A DNA stretch of 64,000 nt from Coptis chinensis (Eukaryota > Streptophyta > Magnoliopsida > Ranunculales > Ranunculaceae): NCBI GenBank assembly GCA_015680905.1, contig CM027383.1, positions 34,718,501-34,782,500 of the forward strand, in the 5' to 3' direction. The position numbers and the translations under genes are program-made. Of the stretch, positions 20,018 through 64,000 are shown piece after piece (within the stretch, counting starts at the first letter, position 1; every line of letters starts with the position of its first letter). The notes beneath the pieces were generated by a model. It was not told the origin of the DNA. It saw only the letters and a list, made by a program, of their open reading frames with translations, and did not search any database.

Positions 20018-20032
20018 CACTACCCCCAAACA
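20018..20032 (-). promoter_or_regulatory. Polypurine tract (PPT)
   Basis: On the minus strand GTTTGGGGGTAGTG lies directly before the 3' LTR start TGATAAGC. This is the expected plus-strand priming site for reverse transcription. A similar GTTTGGGGGTGC lies internally near 21510. Confidence 0.8.
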
Positions 20033-27854: not shown

Positions 27855-28227
27855 TTAGCCATTTACTTGAAATTCGCTATCATCATTTACGTTTTTCACA
27901 GAGATAGCCCCATAAGGGGTGACAGCAGAGACAGTGAAAGGACCAGACCATCGAGTTTTTAATTTTCCTGGAAAAATGTGTAATCTTGAGTTGTACATCA
28001 AAACTTTTTGACCTACTTTGAATTCTTTTCTCAATATGTGCTTGTCATGCACTCTTTTCATGTTGGCTTTATAGGATTTCGAGAGATCATAGGCATCACT
28101 CCAAATTTCCTCAAGCTCATTTAACTGTAATTTTCTCTTTTAAAATGCGCCACGTTAGTGTTATAATTGAGGCTTTTGATGGCCCATAGAGCCGCGGTGC
28201 TCAAGTTCAACCCGGATGACCGGGTTT
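27855..28227 (-). pseudogene. Integrase C-terminal part with GPF/Y-like module
   Basis: The ORF 28061-27855 carries KLKTRWSGPFTVSAVTPYGA, the Gypsy integrase GPF/Y-type module that follows the catalytic core. It is out of frame with the pol ORF. The intervening 28062-28227 still encodes recognisable linker in shifted frames, so at least one or two indels broke the integrase tail. It ends at a TAG near 27855. Confidence 0.75.
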
Positions 28228-30486
28228 TCAAAAAACGAGGCGATACGGTGACATCCCTATCGGTGTCTTAAAAGTCATTACAGATGCCCACAAGGCATCA
28301 GATAATCGTAGAGACCAGTCTTTTCTAGATGGATTGATAGTTTTTTCCAAAATGGATTTGATTTCTCTATTAGAGACTTCGACTTGACCACTGGTTTGAG
28401 GATGATACGGAGTTGCTACTTTGTGCGTGACTCCATATTTCTTTACTAAAGATTCAAAAATTTTATTGCAGAAATGTTTTCCCCCATCACTAATTATAGC
28501 TTTTGGAACACCAAATCGAGAGAAAATATTTTCTTTTACGAACAAAACGACCGTTTTATGATCATTAGCACGACATGCCAATGCCTCAATCCATTTTGAT
28601 ACATAGTCAACTGCTACAAGTATGTATAGGAAGCCATGAGAATTTGGAAATGGACCCATGAAGTCGATGCCCCATACATCAAAGATTTCCACAATTAAAA
28701 TGGGATTTAAGGGCATCATATTGCGTTGAGTAATGCGACCTAATTGCTGGCAGCGATTGCATGCTTTGCAATGCTCATGTGCATCTCTAAACAGTGTTGG
28801 CCAATAAAATCTACATTGTAGAACCTTGGCCACAGTTTTCTTACCACTAAAATGACCACCACAAGATTGTTCATGGCAGAAGGATAACACGTCTGTGTGT
28901 TCCCAGTCGGGAATGCAACGGCGGATTAGTTGGTCGGAACAATACTTGAAGAGGTAGGGATCATCCCAGAAATAAAATTTCACAGTGGATAAAAACTTTT
29001 TTCGGTCATTATGAGACCAAGATAAAGGAACTTCCTCGGTAACTAAGTAATTTACTATGTCGGCGTACCAAGGGGACGAAAAAATAGAGTACAAGTGTTC
29101 ATCTGGAAAGGAATCATAGATAGGTTCGGTATCAGTATCAACATCACGGACAAGTCGTGATAAATGGTCCGCAACTACATTTTCGCAACCTTTTTTATCT
29201 CTAATTTCGAGAGTAAACTCTTGCAAAAGGAGAATCCATCGGATCAACCTTTGTTTTGCATCTTTTTTCGCTAATAGATAACGAAGTGCCGCATGGTCAG
29301 TGTAAACAATAGTTGGAGAACCCACTAGGTAAGGACGAAACTTATCCAAAGCATATACAACGGTGAGAAACTCTTTCTCAGTGGTGGTATAGTTACATTG
29401 AGCTTCATTAAGGGTTTTACTCGCATAGTAAATCACAACTGGCTTATCTTCTCGACGTTGCCCTAGTACAACTCCAATAGCATAGTCGCTCGCGTCACAC
29501 ATTAATTCAAAAGGTTTAGACCAATCGGGTGGTTGAATTATGGGAGCGGTAGTTAATGTGGTTTTTAAAATCTTAAAGGCTTGTTTGCAATTGAAACTGA
29601 AGTAAAAAATGGCATCTTTAAGCAGGAGATTGGTTAAAGGTCGAGCAACCTTTGAGAAATCTTGAATAAATCTCCTATAGAAACCTGCGTGTCCTAAAAA
29701 TGCGCGAATGTCGCAAACTATTTTTGGTATAGGAAGTGAAGCAATTTTTTCTATCTTAGCTTTGTCGACTTCGATTCCGTCCTTTGAAATGATGTGTCCT
29801 AAAACTATTCCTTTTGTAACCATGAAATGACATTTTTCCCAATTAAGAACAAGGTTTTTCTCTTCACAATGTGTAAAGACCTTTTCAAGATGTGATAGAC
29901 AGCTATCGAAAGAATCTCCATATATTGAGAAGTCATCCATGAATACTTCCATAAAACGTTCAACCATATCACTGAAAATGTGAAGAATGCAGCGTTGGAA
30001 AGTACCAGGTGCATTGCAAAGGCCGAGTCTATATGCAAATGTACCAAATGGACAGGTGAACGTGGTCTTTTCTTGATCAGCAGGGTCTATGACTATTTGA
30101 AAATAACCTGAATAACCATCAAGAAAATAGTAATAGGCATGACCTGCTAAATGTTCGAGCATCTGATCAATGAATGGAAGTGGAAAGTGATCCTTGCGAG
30201 TGACGGCATTAAGTTTGCGATAGTCAATGCATATTCGCCATTTCACTAGGATACGAGCGGAAATGCATTCATCTTTATCACTTCGCACAACTGTAATGCC
30301 AGATTTCTTTGGAACCACGTGTACAGGACTCACCCAAATACTATCAGAGATAGGGTAAATAATACCCGCATCGAGTAATTTTAACACTTCCTCTCGTACC
30401 ACATCTTTCATGGTAGGGTTTAGTCGACGTTGCGGTTCACGCGATGTCTTAGCATTTTTGTCAAGGTGTATGCGATGGGTGCACAC
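28228..30486 (-). CDS. pol: Retrotransposon pol: RT, RNase H, integrase
   Basis: A 752-codon uninterrupted stretch. [48 protein letters not shown] and the catalytic FMDDFSIYG. RNase [16 protein letters not shown] and [11 protein letters not shown]. Integrase: an HHCC zinc finger (HEQSCGGHF and CKACNRCQQ), then the DDE triad in [18 protein letters not shown] and [10 protein letters not shown]. Residue order fits Ty3/Gypsy. The M at 30486 is not the native start: the same frame runs upstream into protease, interrupted by a TAG near 30522 and a TAA at 30628-30630. The long intact frame implies recent origin. Confidence 0.92.
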
Positions 30487-30627
30487 AGTAGGTTCAATGC
30501 CTTTAATGTCATCTAGGGACTATCCAATAGCAGAACGATGTTGTTGAATGACATTAATTAAACGAGATTCCTGATCGTCAGTCAATTGTGAAGAAATGAT
30601 AACTGGGTGACGACCATCTGGATCAAG

Positions 30628-31800
30628 TTATACGTACTTTAATTCTGAAGGAAGAGGTTTTAATTCAGGGGTGGGCGGAGTGGGTATTAAAGATTCTTGA
30701 GGAAAGTCATCGTCCAATGAGTAAACAAAATTATGATCATCCAAGTTAGTGGACACCACAGTAATAGGGTCAAATAATGGTATTGACTCTAATAACTCAT
30801 TTACTTCTTGTGTATAATCATCGTCCTCAAACTCGGATTCACTAAAGGAAAGAAATTGGTACACTTCATCTTCTGGAAAAGAGTTTGTTAAATACTCTTG
30901 CGGAATGCTGTCAACCCTGTTCACCTCACCATCAATGTCAGGCTCTGGAATTTGTTTCATCAACTTGAACACATTCACTTCGACCGAAAGATTCCCGAAG
31001 GACATGGTCATGGAACCATCCCTACAGTTAATAAGAGCATTAGCAGTTGCTAGGAACGGACGTCCTAAGATGATAGGAATGGAATCACATACAACTTCTA
31101 TATCCAAAATAACAAAGTCTACAGGATAGAAGAAGTCTTGGACTTTTACAAGGACGTTTTCCACAATTCCTTTTGGATACTTTATGGAACGATCAGCTAA
31201 CTGTAGAGTCATGGTGGTAGGCTTGAGCTCATGAAGACCTAGTTGTTTAAATAAGTAATATGGAAGTAAGTTCACACTAGCTCCTAGGTCTAGTAGCGCA
31301 GTAGCCGTATATTTGTCACCTAAGGTGCATGGAACCGTTGGTCTACCAGGGTCCTTGTATTTGACTATACCATTGTGTTCGGTGATTGAGGGAAATTGTT
31401 CGGTGAGGAACGCTTGTTGAGGAACATTAGTTCTCCTTTTTGTGGTGCACATATCTTTCAGAAATTTTGCATGTTTTGGTAATAGCTTTAAGGCATCGAG
31501 AAAAGGTAAGTTGATTGTCAAATTTTGAAAAGTCTCTCAAATTTCAGCAAAATTCTCATCAGGTTTATTCTTTGCCAAGCATGCAGGAAACGGTGCCTTA
31601 GGTTGGAATTTGGCAAAGGGGTCTACTTGCATGTTTCCTACATTCGGAGTTGCAGACTTTGTTGGAGTTGTGGACTCCTGCGTAGGTTTATTATTAGAAA
31701 TAGATTCATTAGAACCTTCGGATTCCTTTGGTTGATCATCTGGCATACGTATTTGATTGTCTACAGTTTTTCCAGATCGTAGAGTAGTGATTGCATGCAC
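30628..31800 (-). pseudogene. Retroviral-type aspartic protease region
   Basis: Two ORFs in one frame (31800-31537 and 31521-30628) are separated by a TGA just before NLTINLPFLD-like sequence. The protease core is TATALLDLGASVNLLPYYLF, with catalytic Asp in DLGAS and the following IPIILGRPFLATANALINCR flap-side motif. The C-terminal 100 residues are acidic linker to RT. The frame is shared with pol; gag is in a different frame. The homologous region of the second remnant (52841 onward) has Asn in place of this Asp. Confidence 0.85.
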
Positions 31801-32054
31801 CTCACCTTGGTTGTTTGTGCTTGTACCCGGTGCATTGGTGAGTTCAAAGGCTGTGTTTGCTGGTTTAGGGTTTGGAACTGCTTATGCAGGAAACACGCCT
31901 TTCTGACTCTTTTCTTGCGCCAATTGTTGAAGTGATTGTTGGATAGACGTTAAAATTTGAGACTGTTGGTTCATGTAAGCTAAGAAAGTCTCGTTTGTCC
32001 TATCCGTAGCGGGTGGCGCTTGTTGTGCAACAGGTAGTAGTTCACGATTATTGC

Positions 32055-33374
32055 TTAGAAGTTGTTGATTATAGTTGGGATCTGGATTAGCTGGAACAAG
32101 ACTGCGGTTGGTTTGATAATTAGCATTGGAATTATTTTGAAATTGACCTTGTTGGTATTGTTGATTATTTCCTTGGCGGTATGGAATAAAGTTGTTGTTT
32201 GACGAATGAGCAGTGGATTAGCAAAACCTGGAGGAGCCCCCATCTGTTGGTTATTTTGGCGCCAAGCGAAATTTGGATGCTGTCTCCAAGGTGCATTAGG
32301 AATGTTGAATGCACATGACTCCTCCGATTGTTGAGAAGGGGAGGCATATAACAAGGGACAATATACATCAAGATGGTCAGGACTAAGACAAAGAACACAT
32401 GGGGAGGTGTCAACGTTCATGACTGGTTTTGGAAGTTGATCGTTTACTTGAACTGCAAGGGCATCTACTTTTTTAGTTAGGGATTCTATCAAATTTTTTA
32501 ATTCGGGATCAGGTTTTACCTCAAAAATAGATGTAGCCTTTGTAACAGTGTCCTTTGATGACCTAGACGACTCAGTGTTACCCCAGTGTGTACCTTTTTT
32601 AGCTTGTTTTTCAAGAAAAGTATAGGCTTCAATAGCTCCTTTGTCCATAAAGCAACCTCCGTTCATTATATCAAGAGTTTCCTTTTGATGATCAGAAAGA
32701 CCATTAAAGAATGAACGAACAAGGACAGCTTTGTCTAGTTGGTGATGAGGACATTCTAAAAGAAGATCAGTAAAACGACTCCATGCTTCTGTAAAGGATT
32801 CATGAGGATTTTGACGAAAGAATTGAATTTTCTGAAGCATTTCAGTTGTTTTCTTCTGAGTGTAAAATTGAAGCATGAAAGCTTGAACTAGTTTATTCCA
32901 TGTGTCTATGGATTGTGGCTGTTGTCTTGCCAACCAAATTTATGCTTTCTCTGCTAAAGTGAATGGAAACAGCCGAAGCAAGAGTTGTTCCTTAGAAACG
33001 GCTGGGTGGTGAAATGTTGTGGCTACTTGTTGAAGCTTACGAAGATGATTGTAAGGTTTTTCGTGATCCAACCCATGATATATAGGTAACAAACTAAAAA
33101 CATTAGGGGGGATACGAAAATCACCGACAATGTCCTCAAGTTTGATGCAGGAAGAAGGTCCTTCCTGTAATGCAGTATAGAAGTCCGACAGGGGCTTCCC
33201 CGCTGGTGGAGGATCGTCGGCCATAACGACAGAAGTTAATGGCAACGAAGGATCTTGATGAAGGTAACTAACAGAAGAACAATTTTTAGGTGATAACTTA
33301 CGCAATTGCTTATCGTATTTTCTTCGACGATAGGTATGTTCCAATTCTTTAGTGGAACCAGACCTTAATCTCAT
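32055..33374 (-). pseudogene. gag: gag polyprotein
   Basis: Two in-frame ORFs (33374-32940 and 32933-32055) are separated by a single TAA at 32937-32939. Landmarks are FRIPPNVFSLLPIYHGLDHE (Athila/Tat-type retrotransposon gag), LVQAFMLQFYTQKKTTEMLQ, and CVLCLSPDHLDVYC, a CX2CX4HX4C zinc knuckle for RNA binding. A frameshift near 32215 displaces the Gln/Asn-rich tail. The most likely native start is one of the Met codons near 33374 (MRLRSGSTKE) or MADDPP near 33225. Confidence 0.85.
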
Positions 33375-35035
33375 GCAAACATAAAGTTAGATCTAGAAGA
33401 AATTTATTATTACTTGAATTTTATTATTATTTTTAAGCATTAGAGTTAAACAACGTAGGCCTATGCTGCTGCTAACTTAGTAGGGAAGCTAGGAATACGT
33501 GTGCATAAACCAACAGCTAGGTTACAAGAGAGATATGAGGGAGGCTTTCAGTGCGAGCACGGTTCTAATTAAGTAACCTCAATCTTTCAAGTTTCCTAGA
33601 CACCGTTGGAATATGATTAAGATTTATGGAATTAAAATTTATGCAAAGTCGGTATTAATTTTAATTTTATTTGTTTTTTTTTATTTTTATTTTATTTTTA
33701 TTTTTATTATTATTTTATTTTATTTATTATTTTTTTTTAATTTTTTTATTTATTTATTTTTTTAAGATTTATGCAAGGGTGGAAATACAAACATGCAAAT
33801 ACGATCTACTCATACAATACTAGGTGCAGTAGCATGTGAAGATACTCTACGCATACGTATAGCTATACGAATAGGCAAGCTTGTGTCATTGATAAATACT
33901 TCCATACGTACAGGCAAATATACATCAGTAATACGTATATGTATGCTAATTTGTAAATCGATATTATGTAGACGTATATCAACAGTAACTAGCAAATTTG
34001 AATCACTCATACGTATCTAAATATATGAGCATGCGAATCTAGTATACGTACGCAGATAAATACGACAAAACTAAACATGCAAGGTATTATACAGAAACTA
34101 AAATACGACTCTTGTATTGCATAATAATTTGATTTCAACAATACTCATTGAGATTGCGGGTGTCATATAGAGAGCATCTTCACCCCGTAGGGTTTAGAAA
34201 CAACTTACCCAACTCAGATTTTAACCCTCGTTGGAATGTTCTCCTCTTTCTTGACAAAATCGACTTATTAAACAATACCTTGTACTTATCGTGAAAATAC
34301 TAAACATGCAACAATAGACACTTATACGTAGAAAGACATATAACCATGCAAAACAGTACCATTTATATGTATATAGACATTGATATGCAATTCATACCCA
34401 GTTAAACGTATATAAATATTTACCGGTGTACGAATTTGATTCATGCATAATTCTAGGCTAATACGTAAATAATAATCCATAAATTTTTCCTAATACTACA
34501 TACATAGCATTCATGCAGAAAAAATGAAAAATAAAAATAACACTGAAAATTTGGAACCTGTAGCTTCCCGCTAGTCCGCCTTTGAACTGAAACAGACGTT
34601 TCAATCCATCGACGCGATTAATCCCAAAAGAGATTCGAATTATCAGGTACAAGGCCAGATAGTTAGGCCTGGATAAAGATCAGGGTGTACCAGTGGATGT
34701 TGGTGGTTGAACAATGGCAGCAAACAAACAATTAAACCCGCGGATGTGGGTCACACCTGCGGACGCGACTTCACACCCGCGCACGCGTGTCAAGCAATCC
34801 ACAATGAGTTCAAATTTTTACAGAACTCTTATAATCGCCTGAAATTTACTTTCCCAGTCCTAACTTTTGGTACCTGGAAGTACAGCCAAAAATCCGTGAG
34901 CTTACAAGTCTATTGCGAGACAAAAATACGAAATTTGACAAAAAACGTAAGAACGAACGAAAAGGAAAGGAAGGAAGAGAATGGGGGTTCCCCCTTGATG
35001 CAACTTTCGATCTGTAGCACCAGTCCTATGGCTTT
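33375..35035 (-). other. Retrotransposon leader, low complexity and ATACGTAT-rich
   Basis: The untranslated leader between PBS and gag. 33664-33770 is T/A-rich low complexity. 33790-34460 is unusually rich in ATACGTAT-like palindromes. 34735-34795 has short GC-rich repeats around ACCCGCGGATGTG. Overlapping 60-110-codon ORFs on both strands here are by-products of composition. Confidence 0.6.
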
Positions 35036-35053
35036 AGAATAGCAGCGGCGCCA
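35036..35053 (-). promoter_or_regulatory. Primer-binding site (PBS)
   Basis: Three bases inside the 5' LTR the minus strand reads TGGCGCCGCTGCTATTC. The first eight bases fit the 3' end of tRNA-Asp-type primers used by Athila/Tat elements; the match is imperfect after that. Confidence 0.7.
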
Positions 35054-35056
35054 TTT

Positions 35057-36501
35057 TGATATTGGCCTTTTCCTACGTTAGAGATTGAATTCTCTAATTT
35101 GGTATAAAAGTAACTCAAAGTTCCTTACTCACGATCTTCGTTTTCGTGAAGTTGGAATAAGGATTCGAACTAACCTAAAGTCTAGGACAACTACAAATTG
35201 GTTGTTACTCTTAGGGAACTAGTGAGTAAGTTTACTACAAATGTTAGGTTTCTTTCCTACACAAACATTAAGAAGATCATTAAGACTTGAAATCATGCAA
35301 TCAATACAAAAATACAAATTACTAAAGAAAAGGTGGAGAGCTAATCCTCCTCATGTGAAACTAACATTTAGTTGTTGATTTGAAAAGGTTTATTTGATTC
35401 TTCCTAGACTCATAGACAAGCCCTAATGGAAGAGAACTTGATCCCTAACATGTATGGCTCATTAAAGAGCTCATACATGCTAGCAAGTGGAACCAAGCAA
35501 TGACTTATCTCTAAGCTCATTGCTTTGATTCCTAACTAGACACTACACCAACTATCATTTTGGGATAGGATGTAGGTCTAATTGTTCTTCCTAACAACCT
35601 ACCAAGCCAACAACAAATATTTTCCCTCACATGAGTTGGATTAACTCCCCAAAAGGGAAGTTAGCTCATGATCCTTGGGACAAGAAATTACAAACTAGAA
35701 GAACAAAAGAGAGAGAAAGAGGAAGAAGAAAAACCAATTAAACTCACTTGCTTTTTATTTTCTAGAAGAAAACTAAGGTTTCCTCCATTAAAACTATTAC
35801 AAGCGCGCTTTCTTACAAAACTAAAAACTAAATAATAATTTTCACTAAGGAACTAAAATAATACCATGTAAGGAAAAGAAGTCAAGGGAGTAAATGGAGT
35901 GTCCCCCACCCTTGTCCATTTTCTTCTCCATTTGAGAGAAATCCCATTTCCTCCCACGTGAAACATCAAACCATATTTACTTCATTTTTATCTACCACAT
36001 TAAAACAAAGTGACACCTTCCCCTTTTTTTTCACTATTAACACCTAATCTAATTTATTACATGCAAGGTGTCAACTTTGCACCAATAATTTGTTATTTTT
36101 GTCTTGACATGCTCCATGATTGATGACTCATCCAATCTTGTGGCCCCGCATAGTGTGTCCATGTGCAGTCTAGTGGAGGTCCGGTATTTGGGCAATTTTA
36201 CAACTTCCCGCCTATGCGTAGAGTTCATCGCCCTGATTGTCTGAGCAGCTCTCTTGTTGCATTCGGAGTCCTGGTTCAAGAGGTAGGAGCTTTGGAAGTT
36301 TGATGCTTTTGGGCGGATTTGGAAGAATTCATATATACGTCGTTCCTCGTGCTTTATTGCAGGTTTAACCAATATTTCCATGTTTACTGCAAATACCTAC
36401 AAAAGTATGAAAACATATTTATTTCATAATTATTAAACACATAATTAACCAAATTTATATGTCTCAATGGGGTTTCATAATACACTTTTGGGTGCTTATC
36501 A
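35057..36501 (-). repeat. 5' LTR of the Athila-like element
   Basis: 1,445 bp, the partner of 18580-20017. The ORF 36049-36381 inside it is incidental. Confidence 0.95.
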
Positions 36502-39621: not shown

Positions 39622-39890
39622 CATTACACCATAACAGGCTATTTGTAACGGCAAAAAACCATTGCAAATATGGCGTGGGTAAAGTGTTGGAAATTTTTGC
39701 AACGGTTAATAAGCGTTGCAAACAGAAATTTCCAACGCTTATTAACCGTTCCAAGAAAAACTTTCCAACGGTTTTTAAGCGTTGCAAATTATTTGTAACA
39801 CTTGTTTATGCCTGTTTCGTACAAAATTTTAGCAACGTTTTTAAATTTGTAACTGTAATGAACCGTTGCTGATGGGTTGCAAATAAAAAA

Positions 39891-40850
39891 AAAATCTCAT
39901 ATTTTGTAGCAACTAGCTAAACCTGCCCCATTTTATTATGACACACTTAACCTGCAAAAATAACACTACTTGTTCTATATTGAAACAAACATCTCATTTC
40001 CATATTGAAACAAACATCTCAATTCCATGATAAAATCCCCATTGCCTTTTCATACCATTTGACAAGTAAATAATAGCAAACACAATCAAAAGACTGAAAA
40101 AAATAGGATATTCGTTAAACCATGTATGCAATATAACTTCAAAATATTTTCTAAGAGTTACAAATTCATATTCACAAATAAGGGTAACATATTCAATACG
40201 ATTTTCCAAGCAATCTCGGATCATTGCAATACCAAGTATTGGTGATGTCTTCACTCACTATAAATCCTAGTACGGCTCCACAAAGTCCATCTAATTCCTA
40301 AAAATTCACAAAACAAATAATGAACTTAGAAATACAATAGTACTAATTAAACTCATGTAATTAATTAAATATTTGAAAATCCACCTAAAGGAAGTAAAAA
40401 GTTGAACAAATGAGAAAATAGAGGGTGGAATTTTAAGCTTTTACCTTGACGATGAGCTTGAGGTGAGCATGATCATTTGATTGGGGAGCAATTATTTTGG
40501 TCTGCTTCTTGCTTTTCCCTCCATCAAATTGATACCCTACACAACACACTGAACAACACATTGAACGACAACAAAATGATCTATCTAGCTATTCTAAAAG
40601 GCTTTGAAACACTTTATATATAAACAAAAGCACCACTTCTATAAACCTAGAATTGTCCAAAAATATTGTCCTGCATCAACATGTACTAGCAAGCCATGGA
40701 CCCAACATAACTCTAAAAAGGAGGGGTCTGAACATAACAATGTATAGAGCAGGTCGACCTACTTTGTACCAAGTGAAATTCAAATTTTCAAACAAACACT
40801 TGTGTCCAATGATAATATATAGAGCAAATAATGTGGATTCTCTAACCATG
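39891..40850. other. Outer CACTA, left internal part
   Basis: AT-rich. The minus strand has one ORF of 86 codons (40254-39994) and an exon-like piece near 40535-40440 (QFDGGKSKKQTKIIAPQSND, followed by a GTAAAAG donor), possibly another captured gene. I cannot identify it. Confidence 0.4.
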
Positions 40851-40853
40851 ACA

Positions 40854-41215
40854 CACTACACCATAACAGGCTATTTGCAACGGCAAAAAAGCGTTGCTAA
40901 TAATTTTCGCAATGCTTTTTAAGCGTTGCAAATATGGCGTGGGCAAAGTGTTGGAAATTTTTGCAACGGTTAATAAGCGTTGCAAACAGAAATTTCCAAC
41001 GGTTATTAACCGTTGCAATAATGATTTGTAACGCTTTTTATAACTAATTTGTACACAAATTTAAAACCTTTGCAACGCTTTTTAAGTGTTGGTAATTTGT
41101 TAAAAATATTACCAACGGTTCTTAACCGTTGCAAAATTGTTAGTTAATTTAAAAAAAAAATTAATTTAAAAGTCGTTTGTAATGGTTATGAACCATTGCT
41201 GATGGGTTGCCGATA
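40854..41215. repeat. Inner CACTA left TIR and subterminal repeats
   Basis: The unit GCAACGGTTAATAAGCGTTG and variants recur in both orientations from 40875 to 41200. The arrangement closely matches 39640-39890 in the outer element. Confidence 0.85.
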
Positions 41216-41859
41216 AAAAAAAATAATAATTTCTCATATTTTGTAGCGACTAGCAAAACCTACAAAAAGATGCCCCCTCTTGCACCATATACATAAATCA
41301 TAAATTCTTATTTAAGCTAAATTTATCCTGTACACAATACATTTTCATACTATTTTACAAAGAAACCATAATATACATGGAAAAAAAAACTGATAAAGTA
41401 CAAAACTAATCCAACCATATACATTCACAACTTTGAGCGATTTTCTAAACCTCACAAACTTATTGTTAGACTATCACCATAAAAAAAGTTTTCATACTAG
41501 GATCCTAAACAAGAGATAACAGCTTGCATTGTTGAAAACCCTACGCCCATTTACTTCCACAAATGCTCCAAAAGAGATCCTAGCATTAAGATAGAATAGT
41601 CGACCAAGAAAAGATCATGAAGCGGACAATAAGGGGATCAAGACCAATTCAAAAGCTACATACTGATAATCTAAGGTATAGTGGATTGAGCTTAACAGTA
41701 AAGAAGGACTAGGGATTCTCACCTCTGCATCAAAACCCAAATGGAGATTCATGAAAGATTCACATTATCAAGCACGAACTTATCTCTCAACAGCAATGTC
41801 TAGAACCGGTTAATACCCTACAATTGTAGATGATAGGGCTACAATATTTTGCTTCTTAC
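41216..41859. other. Inner CACTA, no gene recognised
   Basis: AT-rich DNA between the subterminal repeats and the NRAMP exons. It probably includes NRAMP intron sequence; no further NRAMP exon is recognised. Confidence 0.4.
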
Positions 41860-42072
41860 CAGTGGATACGCCAAGATTAACAGCTAAATACTGGATTATA
41901 AGCACAAAAATCAATCCAATGAGAATTACCCATAAAAGCTGGCGCAATGGAGCAAAATATAATGTTATCATAACTTCAATAATATTTCAACAATTAAAAG
42001 CAAAACTTTGTTTAATCTTATAGTATATTACCTCATATCTGTGTTTAGCTCCAGCTTGTAAATCAGTTTCCA
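41860..42072 (-). pseudogene. NRAMP metal-transporter fragment (two exons)
   Basis: Exon 42072-42032 encodes ETDLQAGAKHRYE and exon 41938-41860 [20 protein letters not shown] then NLGVSTG, joined in frame through a GTAATA..CCAG intron. This is the conserved region after the DPGN motif of plant NRAMP divalent-metal transporters and the following transmembrane helix. The first exon begins mid-codon after TTACAG, and the DPGN part before it is missing. The later helices are also absent. Borders are intact, so it was captured as genomic DNA, not cDNA. Too short to act as a transporter. Confidence 0.85.
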
Positions 42073-42783
42073 CTGTAATCAAGAAGGCTTCACTAAATTA
42101 AAAAGAAAACTGGGCTGAAGGCTCACCAATTTCCCAGTCAACTAATTAAATTATGATAGACAGGGCAACCTCTTTTTTAATAAAGGAAACATGTTTGGCC
42201 AATTTCACAACGTCTCGTGTAACTTGAAAACAGGCATTACCACGTCGTCGGCCTCTTTACCGACATTAAGGAGGTTTTGGGTCATTTTACATGCTTTCAT
42301 ACAAAGTAAAAAGTCGCTGTGAAGATTGATTTTACATTAGGAAAAACTATTAAGTGCAAACTCTACTTTACAGTGGGAGTTTGGACTGCGAATTCTACTT
42401 TACTATGGAATTTCGGACTACAAACCCAAGCTTACAGTGTCAAAACTTGATCCTGGCATGGCCAAAAGTGATTGCGCTTTAGAATCATCTAATCAAGCGA
42501 CCAGAGCTAGAAAGGGTGAAATGCACGCTGTATTTGCAAGCAGCATAGTTTATAATGTGATAAGAAACCTAAAGGAAGGGGTAATGGTTTAGGTATCTAT
42601 TACATGTGGCATAGGCACTATCGAAAGCAAGCAATGGAAATCAAATCAGGTATCTAAAATATAAAACAAGGGAACCAGACACACCATCTACCAAAAGCAT
42701 GACTAAAACTGAGCCAAACATAGGCCTATATCCTAGAATAAGATACTAGGTTTTCTGTGATCAAACAATAGAAAAATCATTAC
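42073..42783. other. Junction between NRAMP and GGP fragments
   Basis: It holds no recognisable exon. The last GGP exon, C-terminal to LLPQ, is not found here, so the fusion point lies within introns of both donor genes. Confidence 0.45.
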
Positions 42784-45031
42784 CTGGGGCAATAGGAAGA
42801 TCCTTTTTCCAGAATCAGCAATGAGCACATTGTAAGGAATGTTGTTTTCTTGAAGGGAAATGGACGAATCCGATACAACAATAGATAAATCTTCAATAGA
42901 ATTCCCGCTCTCAAAGACAAGACCTCTGACAGGATAATTTAGCAGTTTAGAAATTTTCATCCCGCCACCATTTATGGTTATTTTTTGGGTAGGAGCCTTC
43001 TCAATAGGGAAGGGAACCGACAAGTAATAAGCCTGTTGTCATTGACTAGATTAGTCTTCCCACTACAAACTGATTACAATTTTTTTTACAAATTGACCAG
43101 AGCAAGAAATACAAACTTGGAAATGGAGGTGATTGATTGTTGCAAATGCGCCCAAGCTGTTTTAACCCAATCAAAAGTATGGGTTTCCTCGCTTACGCAG
43201 CCATGTTGAGCAAGTAAGAAGCTCGACGATCCAATCCTTTGAGGAAAGCGCTCGAGAATTTTAGGGATCAGAAGTACATGTCCATATTCAATGGGACTCA
43301 CCTGAGAAATTAAGTTAAACATGATCAAACACTTGTCGCAATCTCACATAAAGCTTAATAAGAATCCTCCAAGATAATCACAAGACATTACCAAAATGTA
43401 ATATACATATCCAAAGAGTTCATCAGAAAGGAAAAGATGCATTGCAGGCTTTTATATATAACATTTCAAGAACCTCAGAGAAGAGGTCGCTCCTTACCGT
43501 AGTTTGTAGTTCTCCAGAAAGCAAAATTTCAAGTTACCTGTTTCTACAACTTGGGTTTATTTTTACTTTTATTTCCATCATTTTTTATTGAGTTCTTATT
43601 TAAGAACTCCACCCATACCTTGCATGAGCGAGTAACCGTTTAACTTATTGACGTTAAATATAAAGTAAACTTCACTTATTTACTGTAAGGAAGCTTACAT
43701 TAATAGCAACAACATTGGGGAATCTTCAGTATCAATTGGAGCACTTGGGAAGAACTGAGTTTCATCAGTGTCACTCTCTTCAAATTGGAATAGCACCTCC
43801 TCTTGACCAACCTTGGTAAAATTGAACTTGTTCTCATCAAACGGTTGGAGGACCTTATCAACCTGAAACTCATTAGGCCTCTTCTTAAGGTGACGACCTT
43901 CGTTCAACTGGGCAATGAAACCATATTCCCCAGGAATCACCTGCACAGAATGCAAAGCAATTTTAGAACAATGGCATGGTCCACATTTTTATCTCTCGAC
44001 ACCCCGAGGTCATTTCTCATCCCGACAAAAAATTCCCATGAAGGATCTACGACAAAAACAAAAATGGGAAGGAATCTGATCAAACCTTAGTCTCACAAGC
44101 AGTGGCATCGTAGCGGAAGAGCCCTCTCTGCACAAGATCTTCCCACTGCAATCAAGTACTATATGTTAGCTAGATTATAGTTAAAGGTTTATCTTGAATA
44201 TTAATAGTGCAAATTTTATGAAGCCCCTTTACCTCTCCGAGAAGAAGGGAATCCAGAAAGGCAACTAGAGACTCTTTCATCTTGCCAATAGATTCCTTTT
44301 CGTTCATTCTGTTCTTCATCCTCTTAAATGTATACAAAGGGAGTTTTGCCCCTGTTCAAGAGAAACATATATCAAAATGAGAAATACCCAAATTCCAAAA
44401 ATCAAGAAAGCTAAAGTAGAGCAAAACAACAACACTTACACATCAAAGATACTAGAATTATGTATCTATCGTGCCAAACTCACGTATATAACAGGTAAGT
44501 GACAAATACCCAAAGATAAAATAAGCTAAGGTTTATCGAATATAGTAAATTCACGACTACCAAAACATGAAAGATTCGTAAGGCATGTCAAATAGAGCAA
44601 GTTGACTAACACCCAACTATCACACATGCTAATAATAAGTTTACGTGATAAACCTTAAAAGTCACTATTATGAAAACATGAAAGGATCCTCAAGGATGTC
44701 AACTATAGCAAATTGACTAATCCCAATCATCATAAAAAAAAAAAATAAAAGAAAAAAAAAGACTAATTATGCCAAAATCAGTGAATTGACTAATACCTAA
44801 ACATCAAAGATGCTACAAGTAAATATTCTAAAGTGTCAAAACAAACAAACATATATCATGCCACAATCAATAATTGACTAGTACCTAAACATGAAATATG
44901 AAAAATTTATGAATAATACCTTGAACACAACAATTGCGAAAACAATTACGTCCACAGCCGGTAATAGGAGCTTCCTCTGAATCTTTCTGGTAATTAGAAA
45001 CAACAGTAGGAACTCTCTTGATCCTCAACAT
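42784..45031 (-). pseudogene. VTC2-like: GDP-L-galactose phosphorylase (VTC2/GGP) fragment, six exons
   Basis: GGP is the key step of plant ascorbate synthesis (GDP-L-galactose to L-galactose-1-phosphate). Exons: 45031-44920 (MLRIKRVPTVVSNYQKD), 44351-44233, 44145-44086 (WEDLVQRGLFRYDATACETK), 43940-43699 (EYGFIAQLNEGRHLKKRPNE), 43301-43117 (VSPIEYGHVLLIPKILERFP) and 43032-42784 (VKISKLLNYPVRGLVFE-type sequence). All have GT/AG borders. The HLHFQ catalytic HIT-type motif survives in the fifth exon. Lesions: the fourth exon is 242 nt, one base short of the in-phase 243, causing a frameshift, and the fifth exon has small indels plus TGA and TAA codons around NPYF..LG..NSLGAF. The C-terminal exon is missing. 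Identity is near certain; it is non-functional. Confidence 0.93.
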
Positions 45032-45069
45032 CTTCTTTGATGATGGTTTTGATGAAAAGAGGATCTAAA

Positions 45070-45192
45070 CTAAGCTAGTAAAGAAAAGAAAAGACAACCA
45101 CAATCGGCAAGAAAGAGGAGATCAGAAGGTGAGCCGCCTTCAGAAGGCAAAGCACCACGTCTACCGTGGGGAGAAGGACTAGTTAAATACAT
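45070..45192 (-). promoter_or_regulatory. Probable conserved uORF of the GGP 5' leader
   Basis: A 40-codon uORF (ATG 45192-45190, TAG 45072-45070) ends 38 bases before the GGP ATG at 45031. It contains GRRGALPSEGGSPSDLLFLA. From memory, this strongly resembles the conserved uORF peptide in plant GGP/VTC2 leaders that lowers translation when ascorbate is high. In other plants that uORF is described as starting at a non-AUG codon, so the AUG here may be secondary. If right, the element captured the regulatory leader as well as the coding exons. Confidence 0.65.
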
Positions 45193-45194
45193 AC

Positions 45195-45715
45195 AACCTT
45201 TGCGTCATACACTACGGACATGAATTATAACAACATAAACCAAAACTTTGGTTATTGCCATGATTTCTACAACTCTCCTAACACTGGGTTTCACCCCCTT
45301 CAATTCTACTTGTTCAAACTTTAAACTAAAAACAGCCCCAACACTTTACAATTTGGAGATGATGATGATGATATTTGAGGATAGTGAGGAGGGTAGCACA
45401 CTAGCACAATCAAATATTAACTTCATGAGTTTTTATCTGATTATGCTATTAGTGTATTGAGCTTTAGAGAGGGAGGGCCACCTATGTCTAGTCTTTTCAG
45501 TGCCTGTTTCACAACTCTTGCTTTCAAATACAAGTGGTTTATGGGTCTGTGGGATGATATGAACAATGAGCAAGATGCTTGGGTTACTAGGTACATATTA
45601 TTAATTGATTCTTATTAAAATTTTAACTATCAAGACAAAAAAAATAAAGTTGGGCAAACAAAGAAAGTCAATATGTTGCAATAACTGGGGGAAAAAAAGG
45701 AAAGAAAAGACATAC
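45195..45715. other. Junction between GGP and RRM fragments; plus-strand exon-like pieces
   Basis: Two plus-strand open pieces stand out: 45248-45460, and about 45465-45590, which reads SLFSACFTTLAFKYKWFMGL in frame between TTTAG and GTACAT. They could be exons of a sixth captured gene in the opposite orientation; no family recognised. Confidence 0.35.
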
Positions 45716-46134
45716 TTGTTTTCCATTGATAACATGAGTTTCCTCAATGACAATATCAACAACAGATGGATCAGCATAAGTAATAAATCCAAAACCCCTT
45801 GGGTGTCCCGTGTATTGATCTTTTATTATAACAGAATCAGTAATTCCTCCATACTTTTCAAAGTAGTTTGTAAACGTAGCTGAAAATTAACCAACAACAT
45901 CACAACTCAACCTCAAACATAACATAATAAAACTAAAATAATAAAAACAAATAAATTAAAGAATATGTTTTACCTAAAGTGGTGTCCTTAGCTAGACCAC
46001 CAATGAAAATTTTCCTGAAAAGAATAATACAAAGAGTTAGATAAACACTAAATAAAAAAAGTGAGAATGTGGTGTAGAGAAACGAACCCAGGGCTGGCTT
46101 TCTCATTGTCAAAGGACTTTGTTTTCGAACCCAT
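45716..46134 (-). pseudogene. hnRNP-type RRM protein fragment (three exons)
   Basis: Exon 1 (46134-46088, MGSKTKSFDNEKASPG), exon 2 (46014-45974, KIFIGGLAKDTTL, the RNP2 motif) and exon 3 (45879-45716, containing HPRGFGFITYADPSVVD with RNP1) join in frame through GT/AG introns. They encode the start and most of the first RNA-recognition motif of plant heterogeneous nuclear RNP 1-like proteins. The chain ends at a donor after HVINGKQ; the second RRM and Gly-rich tail are absent. The reading frame is intact, so a short single-RRM peptide could still be made. The ATG start fits the family. Confidence 0.87.
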
Positions 46135-46204
46135 TGTTATTGTGTCAGAGAATTAGGAATTGAGTTAAACAGTTGGAGGTACTTTGACTAGATATCTAGA
46201 ATGA

Positions 46205-47738
46205 AAATAACTAACTCGGTAAGATGATTCAATTGATGATGTTTCGACGTTCTGGTTTGCCCTCTCCGTTGTTTTCAAATGAAACTCCTGAACAGAATAT
46301 ATTTACTTTATGGCCTTAGCCATATATTTTCATTCCTATCCTAAAGATCTATAGAAAACTAGATTACCTGAAACTCTGGCAGTTGAGGGGTACTTCTGGG
46401 CAATGCAGGCAATGTTGAAGCTTCCAACATCTGTAACCAACAAAGATCAATTTAACTGAAAACTATAAAGTAGACCACAGAAGATAAAAAAACATGTCAA
46501 AGTTAACAAACCTTCTTGTTAACTGGTCTGGCCTTAAACTTTGGAATATTAGCCATCATCTCTTCCTCAAGCTCAGCACAACTTTTCACCCTGACATACT
46601 GAGCACAGTGAGATGCTTCCAGGTCAGGCTCCTTAGGTCTCATCAATGTGAGTTTTGGCTTAGAAGTGGCGTTTACCTGTACAGAAATACCCACACAATT
46701 TACATTAGGTTGAACATGCTAGTGACGGGATGAAACAGTTAAGCGGGAAACACAAAGTTAGAAGTCGATTATTACATGCAAGATCGAACTGTCCCTTGTA
46801 CTGGACTCGAATTTCCTCACCATTTTGGTTATAGAAATGAAAGGTGCTGGTGCTGCTCCTTCCCGAACATAAAGCTTAATAGTGAAAGAGAATTTCATAC
46901 AAATTAGTAACCCCCACAAAAGTGGATATTTGACATATGTACAAAGTTGTCATTCCAATGCAAACCTTTCGATCCTCTTTACGAGGTTTACTAGTAAGTA
47001 GAGGGACACATATTGGTAGCACCACTGGTTAAACCCAACCTTGATTTGTTGTGAAGTAGATTTTGAGGCTTGACATTTAGGATCTGAAATTCAAATTTAT
47101 GTACCCATTATTAATACACAACAAAATAAACTCAACTTAGAAATGTAACAAGACTAGACATGAAAATTGTAGTTACTTGTCTGGATTGTCCTCCATCCAG
47201 TTTCTTACGTTTAATTGCTTGATTTTCTTGTGCAAAATCAGGAGCTGTGACGGTTTTCTTTGCAGTAATAGCACTATAAAGTTAACAGGAAGTATTAGTT
47301 CATTGAGTACATTTATTTGAAAAATAAAATAAAACTCAGTAAGAACATGAACATGGTTATACAATGCTAACCTTCTTGTAATCGACCAATTTTCACTTTT
47401 AACTTGTGATCATTGGGATTGATTTTTCAGCTTTAGAGTCGATGGATTTCTAACCAAACTAGCAATCTTTTTAGCTGTTTGGGTTTTCTTCAAACCAGTG
47501 AGGAGTTGGGGATCAACTTTCTGTTTAACCATCTGGGGTTGTGGAGTGCATACTTCTGGTCCTGCCAATCCAGTTAGTTAAAACAATGACTTAAAACAAC
47601 TAAAGTGTCAGCATAAGGCTATATAGCTGAATATTTAGAAAGAAAAGACACAAACCTTGGACTACAGAAACCTCAGTGGTAGCCATCACCTCAACTGGTT
47701 TCGTATTCTCCTTGGCAAGAACCGCCCTTACAGTGCCA
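46205..47738 (-). pseudogene. TPX2-like: TPX2 microtubule-associated protein fragment (several exons)
   Basis: TPX2 activates Aurora kinase and nucleates spindle microtubules. Minus-strand exons: 47738-47656 (AVLAKENTKPVEV), 47561-47372 (TQTAKKIASLVRNPSTLKLK), about 47275-47175 (APDFAQENQAIKRKKLDGGQ), about 47090-47040 (ILNVKPQ), about 46860-46785 (APAPFISITKMVRKFES), about 46690-46510 (SCAELEEEMMANIPKFKARP), about 46437-46370 (LEASTLPALPRSTPQLPEFQ) and about 46275-46205 (EFHLKTTERANQ). These cover the central TPX2 region in correct order. The N-terminal Aurora-binding part and the C-terminal repeats are missing. I did not verify every border; some exons look open and others uncertain. Confidence 0.87.
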
Positions 47739-47953
47739 CTGAAACCAGCGACATATATAAGCAAGATTACCATAACGAAAGAAAAAAAAAAACTGTCTTT
47801 GATTCTATTCACTAATAATATATCTCTGCCCTGCCCCCTTTAAATTAATTTATATTAATTAATTAGTGTAAAAACAAGTTTTTTCTTCAGAAATGAGGAT
47901 AAACAAACAAACTCGCCAAGTCAAAAACCGTTTCTTTATTTAAAATTGCTTAC

Positions 47954-48265
47954 CGGAACAATGAGTTCGCTTTCTGGAACGGAACCAAACTCATTCTTTA
48001 TAGAAGGACCATCAGAACAAGTTTTCAAGTCGTGTTCTTGAGAAGAAACAGAAGAATACCCTTCTTCTTCTTCGTCATCATCTTCAACAACAAAGTCTTT
48101 CTCTTTCTCTTGAACATCTTCATTTGAAAAGTTTAGAAGACCATTAGTTCCATTTCCACACCATAAATCTTCATTGAAAACTTGCTGGGTCATTGTTGTT
48201 GTTTTCAAAGCAGACATCTCAAGCCAAAAACTGGTTTTCAAAGCTTTGGTTTCAACACAATCCAT
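47954..48265 (-). pseudogene. GATA5-like transcription factor, first exon
   Basis: A 104-codon open exon starts MDCVETKALKTSFWLEM and ends ..SVPESELIVP at a GTAAGC donor (47953). Landmarks of the plant class-A GATA family (GATA5/7 type) are the ALK.S start, LLNFSNEDV, an acidic DDDEEEE stretch, VSSQEHD, and FGSVPESELIVP. The DNA-binding GATA zinc finger, encoded further on in the gene, is absent. It is the first captured piece in the transcription direction and carries its own ATG and 5' DNA, so it could supply a promoter. Joining it directly to the next TPX2 exon would be out of frame. Confidence 0.82.
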
Positions 48266-48369
48266 TTGTTGGGAATTAGAAAAGGAAGAAGAAGGTAGGA
48301 AGTGATTGTTCTGGGGAAGAGGAGGAGGGGTTGAAGGAGAGAAAGAGGAACCCTAACCTAGCGGCTGTG

Positions 48370-48644
48370 AGAGAGAAAGAGAGGTTTTCTATTTTTACAT
48401 ACCGAGGGCGATTTCTTTTTTGTTTCCCTCTTTTCGAAATTTCGATGTTGTTTTGGTTTTTTGGATTTGTAACACTTTTCAAACGATTTTCAAGCGTTAG
48501 CAATTAATTCCGGAAATTCATGGAAAGAAAGTAATGCTTTACAACATTGCTAACGCTTATATAGCGTTGGCAACTTACTAACGGTAAATAAGCGTTGCAA
48601 AACAAAATAGGTGTGTGTTGCAAATATCCTATTATGGTGTAGTG
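48370..48644. repeat. Inner CACTA right subterminal region and TIR
   Basis: It shares about 265 bp with 50935-51196 (outer element), from GAGAGGTTTTCTAT to GGTGTAGTG, with AACGCTTATATAGCGTTGGC and TAACGGTAAATAAGCGTTGC motifs. Confidence 0.88.
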
Positions 48645-48647
48645 ACA

Positions 48648-50929
48648 CCCAACTAGAAGCATCTAGTCATCAAGACATTAGTTTCAAACACGGAGATAAA
48701 TGGGGCAGAGAAATTGTAGATAAAAAAAAAGGTAAGAAGGAGTTGTATGAAAGATTTGTCTAACCTGTTTTATATTTCTTAAGCACAATGCAAACTCAGA
48801 TACCGAGTAGTTCACCAATAGGGAAAACCAAACCTAAAAGGTCAACAAATAATGATAAATTGTGAAGACATTGACACGTGGTCGAGCCACGCGTCCTTGT
48901 AGAGTTAGTATAGCGGGTCATAAAGAACAATGAGGGTCATGTGCTCCATTGCTCTGTAATATATATAAAGTATTCATTCCATGACTAGCTATGTATGTAG
49001 TAGTGCAACTGTGCAAGTTATGAATGAAACAAAACTTATGTGCCTGCGTACTTAGTCAAATATGCACAATATATTACTTCCCAATAAGTGGAAGCTCAAA
49101 AGGAATTAATTGTGTGGAAGAAACATACAAGATCTTAATAGTATTTAGCTTCATTTGCAGCTTTAACATGTGACTCTAAGTTGTGCTCATCAAGAGAAGA
49201 ATTAAGGCTTTGAACATGTGCCCATGCTTAATATTCCAAATCTCTAGCTTCTAGTACCTCTCTGTAGAACTAACAAAGACATATAATTAAATTAATCACA
49301 TTCTTTATATAGCTATTTTCAATTGCAAACACTAAACTCAGCACAGAGAAATCCACTGCGTTTTCTACTTTTCTTTTCCACTACATGATAATAGTGTAAT
49401 CGTGCTCACACAAGCAGGGACACACGCACACGCAAAAAATAAAAAAATAATAACACATATCTTGTTATGGTATAGTTAATTCATGAGGAAAAGTCGTCCA
49501 TCCACCCCCCAAACACATTCATCACATATCTTGTTATGGTATAGTCAATTCATGAGGAAAAGTCGTCCATCCACATTAAACTAACAAAGAATCCCACAAC
49601 AGTGCACAACACCGTAACTTTAATCAAAGCTACTTCAAACAACAATGTATATAGAGTATAGACACTTAACAACTAATCTTTTTCCATAGGAAAATGCTAT
49701 AAATAGGAAACTCATTGCAAGTTATCAGCAAAACAAACACATCAATGCACATAAAAATTTACCTGAAACTAGTTAGTAGACACTGTCTTTCCAAACTCCC
49801 TAGTATTATGAGCAGAAAAGTGAACAAGTGATCCTAGCCTTCAACAATTCATGTGGTAACTTTTCCATTCTCCAAGTAATGTTGTGGCAACAGTACAACA
49901 TACGAAATCAAAACAAAACCTATAAGTGAAACAGAATTGCAAGCACACACTTCTTCCACTATACCGAATCAAACAAGCAGTACAACGAACGGGGAGGGGG
50001 GAGGTAAACTAAAAGAAGTGAACTACTAGTGAAATTAGGAATCTAGTGATTCATCTTGGATCTCAAGAAGTTCGCATTTTATGAATATAACGGGCAAACT
50101 ATGAATGCACTAAATAATCCCACATTTAATATGGCTATGTTCTGTCACCAATATACTTTAAATACCGAGTAAACTTGTAATAAGTTTAGAGATCGAGAGA
50201 GGGAGAAGAAGAAGAATATATTGAAGCTAAATCAGTAAATAGAACAGATGATGCCTCGTGAAATTAGAATGTATATTTCCCAAGATTTATCTTTAGCTAT
50301 GCAGCATTCATAAAATCTCTACAAGTCTACAACGAATGAGCAGATGGCTTGATGGTACGTAAGTTGTCTAGAATAAGGAAAAAGAAAAGGGTAGATTAAC
50401 TTGTGAATCATGAGCTGTTATATCGAGGTGTTTACTAGTATTGTAGGCAATGATCATTGATCAACACAAATTTACATACCTGGGGCACGACGACAATTTG
50501 TAAGAGAAACAAACAAAATATGAGTAAACCTAAAACATCTGTAGGAAATAATGAACAAAATCTCTCTCCCACACACACAAACACAAAATCAATGATTTTG
50601 GTGGTTCAAGAAAAGATTATTAAGAGCATATAATGAATGTGACTCGGTGTGTAAATCTCATGCATATCAAAAACCAACCATTATGCAGCACTGCAGCAGT
50701 AGTCTTGCTTCACAGATCAAACACTAATGGCTAGTGCTTTTCCACTAACCAGATAATCAATCAAGTTTTGCAGGTTTGCATATAACATTTTGTAATTTCA
50801 GTTGTTTGTTTCACGCGTTTCTTTTTAGTTTTGCACCTTTTGTTTTTTAAATGAGTTATCTACCCAAATGTTTGGAGAAGTCCACATCAAAATTCCAATA
50901 GCATAGTCATTCTATATACCGATAGCAGT
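48648..50929. other. Outer CACTA, right internal part; no gene recognised
   Basis: About 2.3 kb of AT-rich DNA with no ORF over 60 codons on either strand. It contains a promoter-like patch (ACACGTGG near 48874 and TAATATATATAAAG near 48957) and a 52-bp direct repeat (49454-49505 and 49523-49574, CACATATCTTGTTATGGTAT..). It may derive from captured noncoding host DNA. Confidence 0.5.
49454..49574 (+). repeat. 52-bp direct repeat, two copies
   Basis: 49454-49505 and 49523-49574 differ at one base (ATAGTTAATT and ATAGTCAATT), separated by 17 bp. Confidence 0.92.
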
Positions 50930-51196
50930 GTTGAAAGAGAGGTTTTCTATATACCGAGCGCAATTTCTTTTTTGTTTCCCTCTTTTTGAAATTTCGATGC
51001 TGTTTTGGTTTTTTGGATTTGTAACACTTCTCAAACGATTTTCAAGCGTTAGCAATTAATTCCAGAAATTCACCAAAATAAAGTAACACTTTACAACATT
51101 GCTAACGCTTATATAACGTTGGCAACTTACTAACGGTAAATAACCGTTGCAAAGCAAAAAAGGTGCGTGTTGCAAATATCCTATTATGGTGTAGTG

Positions 51197-61500: not shown

Positions 61501-64000
61501 TTGCATGAAACTAACGTCAAACAACAATTAACGGGAAATAGAAAACTAGATACAAATGTATCGAATTAATCTCAAATAATATTTAACAGAAAATCGAAAA
61601 TTGGATGCACATGCAAGTATTAAACTAATCTTAAAAAGTAATTAATGGACAATCGAAATATGGATACAACTACATTAAACTAACCTCAAAGAATAATTAA
61701 CGAGAAATCAAAACTTGGATGCAAATACATCGAACTAACATAAAAAAAATAATTGTCGGGAAATCGAAAATTGGATGCAAATGCATTGAACTAACTCCCA
61801 GAAACTAAATTAAAAGAAAATCGGAAACTGGATGCAATTGTATTGAACTAACCTAAAAAAAATTAACTATAAATTGGAAATAGGATGCAAATGCGTGAAA
61901 CTGATCTTAAAAAATAATTAACAGTAAATCGGAAACTGGATGCAACTACACTGAACTAATTTCAAAAAATAAATTGGATGCAAAACATTGAACTAACCTC
62001 GAGAAATAATTAACGGAAAATCGAAAACTGGATGAAATTCATTGAACTAACCTCAAACAATAATTAATGTGAAATCAGAAACTAGATGCAAATGCAACCT
62101 CATCGAATAATAAATGAGAAATCGGAAACTGAATGCAAATGTAATAAACTAATCTCAAAGAATGATTAACGGGAAATCGGAAATTGGATGCAAATATATT
62201 GAACTGACCTCGAAGAACAATTAATAGAAAATTGGAAATTGGATGCAAATGCATTGAACTAACTGCAAAGAATAATTAACAAGAAATCGGAAACTGGATG
62301 CAACTGCATTGAACTAACCTCAAAAAATAAATAACAGAAAATCAGAAACTTGATGCAAATGTATTGAACTAACCTCAAAATATAGTTGTGTTATATGTTG
62401 TGGTAATGTCTCAATAAGTATAGTTTTGTATTTAAAACGGTGTTTATCTTATCTTCTTTTTTTAATGATTTGGAACACCTTGCTATTCAAGTAGCTTCAA
62501 TATGAACTTCGTCTTATTAGACAATCTCACAAAACTTCAATCAAACTTCTATTATTAAATAACAAAATGAAGTTGAAGGATTTTATCAATGGTGAGTTAA
62601 TTTTTTTTAATAGAGAGTACGTGGGGTTTTCATGTTATAAGAAATTTGGATGAGTGATCAATACAATATTTGTATATAATAGTTTTGCATATATAATTAA
62701 TATGATAGGACCCGTTCATAGATAATCTTTGAAGATCCCACATAGTGAGTCAGGTATAATTTAAAGAATAATTAACAGAAAATCGGAAACTGGATAATCT
62801 TTGATGATCCCATATAGAAAATCAAGCATAATTTATTTTTATATCATGTTTGCAATTAAGGACACTACAGATGGATTAGTAGAAAGTTGGTATTACACAC
62901 CACATTAGATAATTAAAAGGAAATCGAAAACTAGATTCAAATGCATTTAACTGAGCTCAAAGAGTAATTAACTGGAAATCGAAAACTTTATGCATATACG
63001 ATAAACTAAACTCAAAAAGTAATTAACTAGAAATCGAAAATTGCTGCAACTGCATTAAACTAACGTCAGAGAATAACTAACGGGAAATTAGAAATTGGAT
63101 GCAAATCTTTGAAAAATATTTATTGGGAAATCAGAAACGGTATGCAAAAATGCATCAAACAAACCTCAAATAATAATTAACGGAGAATCGGAAACTAGAT
63201 GCAAATGCATTGAACTAACCTAAAAAAATAATTAACAGGAAATCAAAAACCGAATGTAACTTTATTGAACTAACCTCATAGAATAATTGGCGGGAAATCA
63301 GAAACTAGGTGCAAACGCATTGAAATAACCTCAAAGAATAGTTAGAAGAATCAGAAACCGGATGAAATTGCATTGAACTAACCTCAAAGCATAAATAATT
63401 AGAAATCATAAACTAGATACAGATGTATTGAACTAACCTCAAAAAGTTATTAATGAGAAATCGAAAACTTGATGCAAATGCAGTGAATGTACTAATCTAA
63501 AGACTAATTAACAAAACATCAAAAAATGGATGCAACTTCACTAAACTAACCTCAATGAATAATTAACGGGAAATCATAAATTTGATATAACTGCATTGAA
63601 CAAACCTTAAAAAATAATTAACGGAAAATCGAAAACTTGGATGCAATCTCCTTGATGAATATTTAATAGAAAATCGGAAACTGGATTCAAATGCATTAAA
63701 ATAACCTCAAAGAATAGTTAACTGGAAATCGGAAACTAGATGTAACTGCATCGAACTACCGTCAAAGCATAAATAACCAGAAATTGGAAGCTAGATGCGA
63801 ACTAATCTCGAAAAATAATTAACGGGAAATCAGAAACTGGATGCAGATGTATTGAACTAACGTCAAAGAGTAATTAACGGGAAATTGGAACTTGGATGCA
63901 AATGCAATGAACTAATCTCAAAGAGTAATTAACGAAACATTGAAAACTATATGCAATTGCACTGAATTAATCTTAATGAATAATTAATCTGAAATCATAA
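61501..64000. repeat. Satellite-like tandem array, unit about 55-58 bp, running off the window
   Basis: The unit is approximately GAACTAACCTCAAAGAATAA, then TTAACGGGAAATCGGAAACT, then GGATGCAAATGCATT. It repeats head to tail with substitutions and indels from about 61501 to 62385. After about 500 bp of other DNA that holds a lone unit fragment near 62763-62795, it resumes at about 62900 and continues to the end. Roughly 35 to 40 units are present. Confidence 0.9.
62386..62899. other. Interruption within the satellite array
   Basis: About 0.5 kb of unrelated AT-rich DNA. The phrase GAAAATCGGAAACTGGATAA (about 62779) shows that part of it is still derived from the array. GATAATCTTTGAAGATCCCA recurs as GATAATCTTTGATGATCCCA. 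No TIR or TSD identified. Confidence 0.55.

Follow-up and report, generated by a model that had tools for sequence, protein, structure and literature searches.

How did one transposable element come to hold pieces of several unrelated host genes, all reading the same way? The question is raised by a locus on contig C7 of Coptis chinensis, within a stretch of 64,000 bp (the window; C7:34718501-34782500 of the 935.6-Mb genome). An initial annotation had recognized there a CACTA element with fragments of five donor genes in a single orientation, and had ascribed the arrangement either to selection for read-through or to stepwise capture with a bias. The element is a real, well-formed Pack-CACTA of a known kind, for which the evidence of assembly is unusually full. 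The fresh point, in a small sample, is that the direction of capture is shared across family members.

A CACTA element and its captured pieces

The segment from 40854 to 48644 is one CACTA transposon. It is bounded by 28-nt terminal inverted repeats (TIRs; 40854-40881 and 48617-48644, 93% complementary) that open CACTACACC... (first bases CACTAC), and it is flanked by a 3-bp target duplication, ACA, at 40851-40853 and 48645-48647. The TIR pattern (≤3 mismatches) matched six times in the window against 0.11 expected, and a subterminal motif matched 16 times across the window (≤3 mismatches) where none was expected, with repeat families lying close to the ends. Because copies of the composite elsewhere carry different target duplications (see below), the TIRs belong together. 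Chance TIRs or ends contributed by two separate elements, the latter a possibility raised in the initial annotation, are ruled out by the matching duplications and by these copies elsewhere, and the reading as a single capture element holds.

Genome searching with the left 547 bp returned many matching places (859 candidates, of which the best 40, window included, were scored). Both ends were found in 14 of the 20 family loci fetched, 13 of them with identical 3-bp duplications as read by eye. No transposase was found among the ORFs of the inner element that were scanned, a part of the total, and none of the best 150 of 2715 Transposase_21 candidates in the genome lay within it. As part of the overall explanation given below, we consider it likely that this Pack-CACTA is non-autonomous and comes from a large C. 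chinensis family.

Table 1. Features of the inner element and of the element that encloses it (window positions)
Feature	Position	Strand	Evidence and content
Outer CACTA element, same family, encloses the inner one	39622..51196	.	TIRs, duplication CAC, similar ends
Inner Pack-CACTA element	40854..48644	.	TIRs and target duplication
Left terminal region (TIR, subterminal repeats), common to family members	40854..41796	.	Full or near-full-length match in fetched copies, several stopping at 41796
NRAMP piece	41797..42075 (coding match 41810-41986)	-	Pfam Nramp, E 1.4e-5 (below Pfam's own cut-off); exon-sized genome matches
Captured block X	42072..42644	.	Matches C8:24842027-24842588 (92%, L035), sharp ends
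VTC2 (GDP-L-galactose phosphorylase) piece	42639..45393	-	~360 bp upstream of start codon, exons 1-6, part of intron 6
RRM/hnRNP piece	45389..46167	-	Pfam RRM_1, E 2.1e-8
TPX2 piece	46161..47776	-	Pfam TPX2_importin, E 5.3e-13
GATA-like first exon and 5' region	47783..48374	-	ORF 47936-48352; exon 1 at 47939-48265
Right terminal region, common to family members	48458..48644	.	81-88% match in most of the complete copies fetched

From right to left, GATA-like, TPX2, RRM/hnRNP, VTC2 and NRAMP pieces follow one another on the minus strand (Table 1), in agreement with the five unrelated donors in one orientation originally described. To these is added a sixth captured block, X, which was absent from the initial annotation. 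The first exon at the right we take to be GATA-like by resemblance; its sole match in a protein search was an uncharacterized Coptis protein. The VTC2 exons were not recognized by PDB and Pfam, but a protein search of their source locus did name the family. The GT donor is kept in five of the six VTC2 exons and lost in exon 5. Introns are retained and DNA upstream of the VTC2 start codon is present, which confirms capture at the genomic level, as first proposed, and rules out capture from cDNA.

Intron 1 of the VTC2 piece (44497-44900) contains short, diverged tandem repeats, and 44687-44878 is missing from the source locus. A candidate plus-strand gene at 45421-45618 was rejected: it gave no Pfam or PDB match, and its ORF lies inside the stretch matching the RRM source.

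Source loci, copies elsewhere and decay

The captured interior was searched against the genome, and the best 40 of 264 candidates were scored. The VTC2 source is at C9:29086913-29089370, the RRM source at C2:70732540-70733221, with a second RRM-like stretch continuing beyond, and the TPX2 source at C9:50820255-50821885 (92%). The VTC2 source (L030) comprises seven exons or more, and exon 7 was not captured; a search with the protein of this source gave named GDP-L-galactose phosphorylases, most of them at 78-86% (120 of 1407 matches listed). For NRAMP, exon-sized matches of 81-91% were found at C4:2.71-2.83 Mb (32 of 32 candidates scored), and this cluster is likely the source. No native GATA gene emerged from the best 40 of 88 candidates, the three loci fetched belonging to or resembling elements. 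Of the donor loci that the initial annotation had expected, widely separated ones are thus mapped for VTC2, RRM and TPX2, with a likely cluster for NRAMP, but that of GATA was not found. The initial annotation had also held open that the genes might be contiguous elsewhere in this order; this is ruled out for the three fetched sources by their separation (C9:29.09, C9:50.82 and C2:70.73 Mb).

The VTC2 source carries one in-frame TGA. The window copy is likewise interrupted by a stop codon there, so this stop may predate capture. In L033, L034 and L058, which are elements or likely elements, the GATA module and a second gene-like stretch lie side by side in one orientation; none of five ORFs in the second stretch was named by Pfam. 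The locus C3:42690067, tried as the native GATA gene, was rejected, as it shares the second stretch of L033 and L034 and looks like another element.

The composite is also present at C2:8319738-8342198 and C3:72841594-72853433, flanked by TAA and TAC, respectively. Both copies lack 41880-42407, 45346-45398 and 46945-47719, have NRAMP reduced to 83 bp, and are split by later insertions. Because it is found at these two other sites with their own duplications, the captured unit has itself moved, as judged from sequence comparison.

Several family members carry only part of the composite. NRAMP is found without VTC2 in L011, L012 and L022, and in L033/L056 and L034/L057 the GATA module adjoins the right end, with TPX2 missing from the stretches fetched. 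Because both occur without the rest, NRAMP and GATA look like older, outer modules. The three pieces between them are similarly diverged from their sources in the window (VTC2, 5.1%; RRM, 3.5%; TPX2, 5.2%), suggesting that they may have come together. None of the fetched copies of the composite has the VTC2 5' end without RRM, and on this ground the middle block may represent one capture event. The stepwise capture initially proposed is therefore supported for the NRAMP and GATA modules, whereas the middle block may have entered at once.

Other partial copies have different limits. In L019 (duplication ATG), the left half up to 45758 is followed by 78 bp of TPX2 and then by other DNA (Y), and the right end is less similar; L029 spans 45526-48643. 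Six copies, among 40 scored of 264, have VTC2 up to ~44996 followed by Y; a role of these as precursors was not established, since the VTC2 source is continuous past 44996. Among the same 40 of 264, pieces also stand alone, TPX2 in at least five places, VTC2 at C7:84776362 and X in at least two, so that transfer between elements, and not capture here, may account for some modules. The TPX2 piece of L059 (C8:5562700-5567700) extends past the 46161 junction into source sequence and hence is a separate event or a paralogue. It lies ~3 kb from a Transposase_21 match at C8:5559273, in the same direction, much like the TPX2/Transposase_21 pair at C6:61710388/61714264. This transposase (region L059, L060) was considered as the autonomous partner and rejected, no family TIR being present in the 8.5 kb fetched.

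Between copies, exons diverge more (0.067) than introns (0.036; repeat-rich 44400-44900 excluded), and on this ground coding constraint on the pieces was rejected. Frameshifts are private to single copies of the composite, and the copies appear to be decaying independently. C-to-T changes relative to source reach 8-18% at CG, 4-11% at CHG and 2.6-4.4% at CHH, an excess such as is expected for silent DNA that was presumably methylated. Given the private frameshifts and this methylation-like excess, a coding function of the captured pieces appears unlikely; nothing supports the making of a protein.

Direction of captured genes across the family

Eleven other family members, read left end first, contain 218 minus and 172 plus stop-to-stop ORFs of ≥50 aa. 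The minus Pfam scan covered 108 ORFs of ≥61 aa (12 of the top 120, most of them in element ends, were dropped) at E ≤0.001. The plus scans covered 101 ORFs at 0.001 and 58 at 0.01, two overlapping sets that amount to about 140 distinct ORFs of the 172 (139 by exact match). SNAP, NDK, PPR, DNA_ligase_A_N and Patatin were recognized on the minus strand; no Pfam match was obtained among the ~140 of 172 plus ORFs. Grouped minus scans assigned Patatin to L009/L022, the ligase and NDK to L014/L015, and SNAP to L018/L021, with the PPR ORF in one of the five remaining members. Weak minus matches at 0.01 (Spatacsin_C, ABC1, TPR_8 and DUF5676) were left out of the count.

In this independent sample, all five genes are thus on the minus strand (two-sided P 0.06; one-sided, 1/32). 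Together with the five of the window, 10 of 10 point one way (P 0.002), the window having been chosen for this feature. The directional bias suggested initially is accordingly supported at family level, by a small sample with five genes minus and zero plus. One-way packing may be a habit of the family, not luck. A limited literature search found no paper on orientation bias of CACTA-captured genes, which does not imply absence elsewhere.

Two explanations of the common direction can be set against each other. It is possible, and we put this forward tentatively, that direction is selected and not mechanistic: pieces captured in sense to an element transcript would splice out or do no harm, and those in antisense would be lost because they silence host genes or disrupt the element's transcript. 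All recognized genes pointing one way is what such selection would leave, and the captured pieces of soybean Tgm-Express1 do give spliced chimeric transcripts, as described in the available part of PMC1947982; the silent and decayed look of the copies argues against it. Chance coupled with ascertainment seems unlikely to us. It would draw on the two-sided P of 0.06 for the five genes of the window alone, a window picked for the feature, and on the equal two-sided value for the independent sample, just five genes in 11 elements, but it has to accommodate ten different genes with zero opposite and the lack of any Pfam match in ~140 of 172 plus ORFs.

Junctions and mode of assembly

Module borders are sharp when compared with the sources. 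As read by eye, the flanking sequences share ACTG (4 bp) at the NRAMP/X junction, AATCAA (6 bp) at X/VTC2, GG (2 bp) at VTC2/RRM and TGAG (4 bp) at RRM/TPX2, and there is 0 bp of microhomology at TPX2/GATA; for the NRAMP and GATA junctions, family elements stood in for the native genes. Simulated random breakpoints reach the sum of 16 bp over five junctions with P 0.00015. Between modules, the TIR pattern (≤3 mismatches) had no match. Because junction microhomology exceeds chance and no TIR match separates the modules, template switching is favored over the fusion of neighboring elements.

Taken as one joint proposition, it is probable in our judgment that template-switching repair assembled the composite, that it moved in trans and was then silenced, and that its direction reflects a bias of the family. 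Gaps would have arisen in family elements from excision or breakage, and gap repair would have proceeded by synthesis that switched among unrelated genes at short matches, the new DNA being placed between the NRAMP module on the left and the GATA module on the right, both of them older. Transposase acting in trans would then have mobilized the composite as a whole, which would have become silenced under putative DNA methylation. The common direction would represent a family-wide bias, either in capture or in retention. Several observations weigh against this explanation: the native GATA gene did not turn up, family elements had to replace native NRAMP and GATA genes in the junction comparison, two junctions share 0 and 2 bp, TPX2, VTC2 and X pieces also stand alone elsewhere, and no autonomous partner with these ends was identified.

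The rival to assembly by repair is brought into focus by the setting of the element. The inner element is nested in one of the same family, itself inside a Ty3-like gag, as indicated by the outer TIRs at 39622 and 51196, the CAC duplication on both flanks, right ends that are 91.5% identical between the two elements over 270 bp, and a gag frame that runs across the insertion point when the outer element is left out (a stop lies further on in frame). This nesting was absent from the initial annotation. The listed ORFs of the outer element, one of which was scanned by Pfam, revealed no clear gene piece belonging to it. The rival holds that two family members insert close together and that their outermost ends are then mobilized jointly with the intervening DNA. 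The nested pair, whose four ends are compatible, would represent an intermediate of this kind and shows that fusion intermediates exist; moreover, the Pack-TYPE model, in the portion of PMC8903248 available, finds new DNA to be internal, as here. Against these points stand the missing TIR match between modules, the several rounds that five genes from distant places would need, and the above-chance junction microhomology, and we regard fusion of neighbors as rather improbable.

Within repair-based assembly, capture in the family might even be intrinsically directional, a reading that we consider decidedly doubtful. Repair from the left end would prime by microhomology on the displaced coding strand (R-loops) of transcribed genes, the R-loop step being conjectural. 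Every gene would then enter 3'-to-5' from the left, and a single repair event could thread in several, which in this element would be X, VTC2, RRM and TPX2. If this were true, gene capture by transposons would report on template switching that depends on transcription. The Coptis family allows capture direction to be counted. If the skew holds, the count would discriminate between mechanisms: a direction is predicted by repair linked to transcription and by selection acting on transcripts, but neither by neighbor fusion nor by template switching without bias. As for the locus itself, a single genome yields source loci, junctions, partial copies and decay for one worked case.

The comparisons that follow refer to the available parts of the reports cited. 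Five donors in one CACTA element, regarded as unusual in the initial annotation, have a precedent in soybean Tgm-Express1, a non-autonomous CACTA element in which five unrelated host genes are represented by fragments that retain exons and introns (PMC1947982). It resembles the Coptis element, itself probably non-autonomous, in all these respects; it differs in being 5.7 kb long and lying within an F3H intron, with spliced chimeric transcripts shown, and the directions of its fragments are not stated there (PMC1947982). Pack-CACTA and other Pack-TYPE elements are likewise TIR elements that contain coding DNA of several loci, with new DNA internal, maize Pack-CACTAs holding the most distinct loci among them, but the route proposed for them is fusion of neighbors, and the orientation of their captured genes is not taken up there (PMC8903248). 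The Tpn1 family of Ipomoea nil is a large, non-autonomous CACTA family, as the Coptis family probably is, with captured host sequence inside conserved ends and 3-bp duplications; its TIR family and host are different (PMC5105172). Breakpoint microhomology, read as template switching in gap filling, is also described for Pack-TIRs of animals, although these are mostly single captures with a median microhomology of 2 bp (PMC8277862). Maize Helitrons, too, have several donors each and a capture order derived from related copies, but they are rolling-circle transposons and not TIR elements (PMC3288121). CACTA elements of Chenopodium (PMC8978399) and wheat (PMC4290129) contain host gene fragments as well, short or single in the former and reported as whole-chromosome counts in the latter.

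Elsewhere in the window, a pair of ~1.44-kb repeats at 18580-20017 and 35057-36501, 97% identical, likely represents the LTRs of a young retrotransposon (span, 18580-36501), and a tandem array with a unit of ~55 bp occupies 61502-64000.
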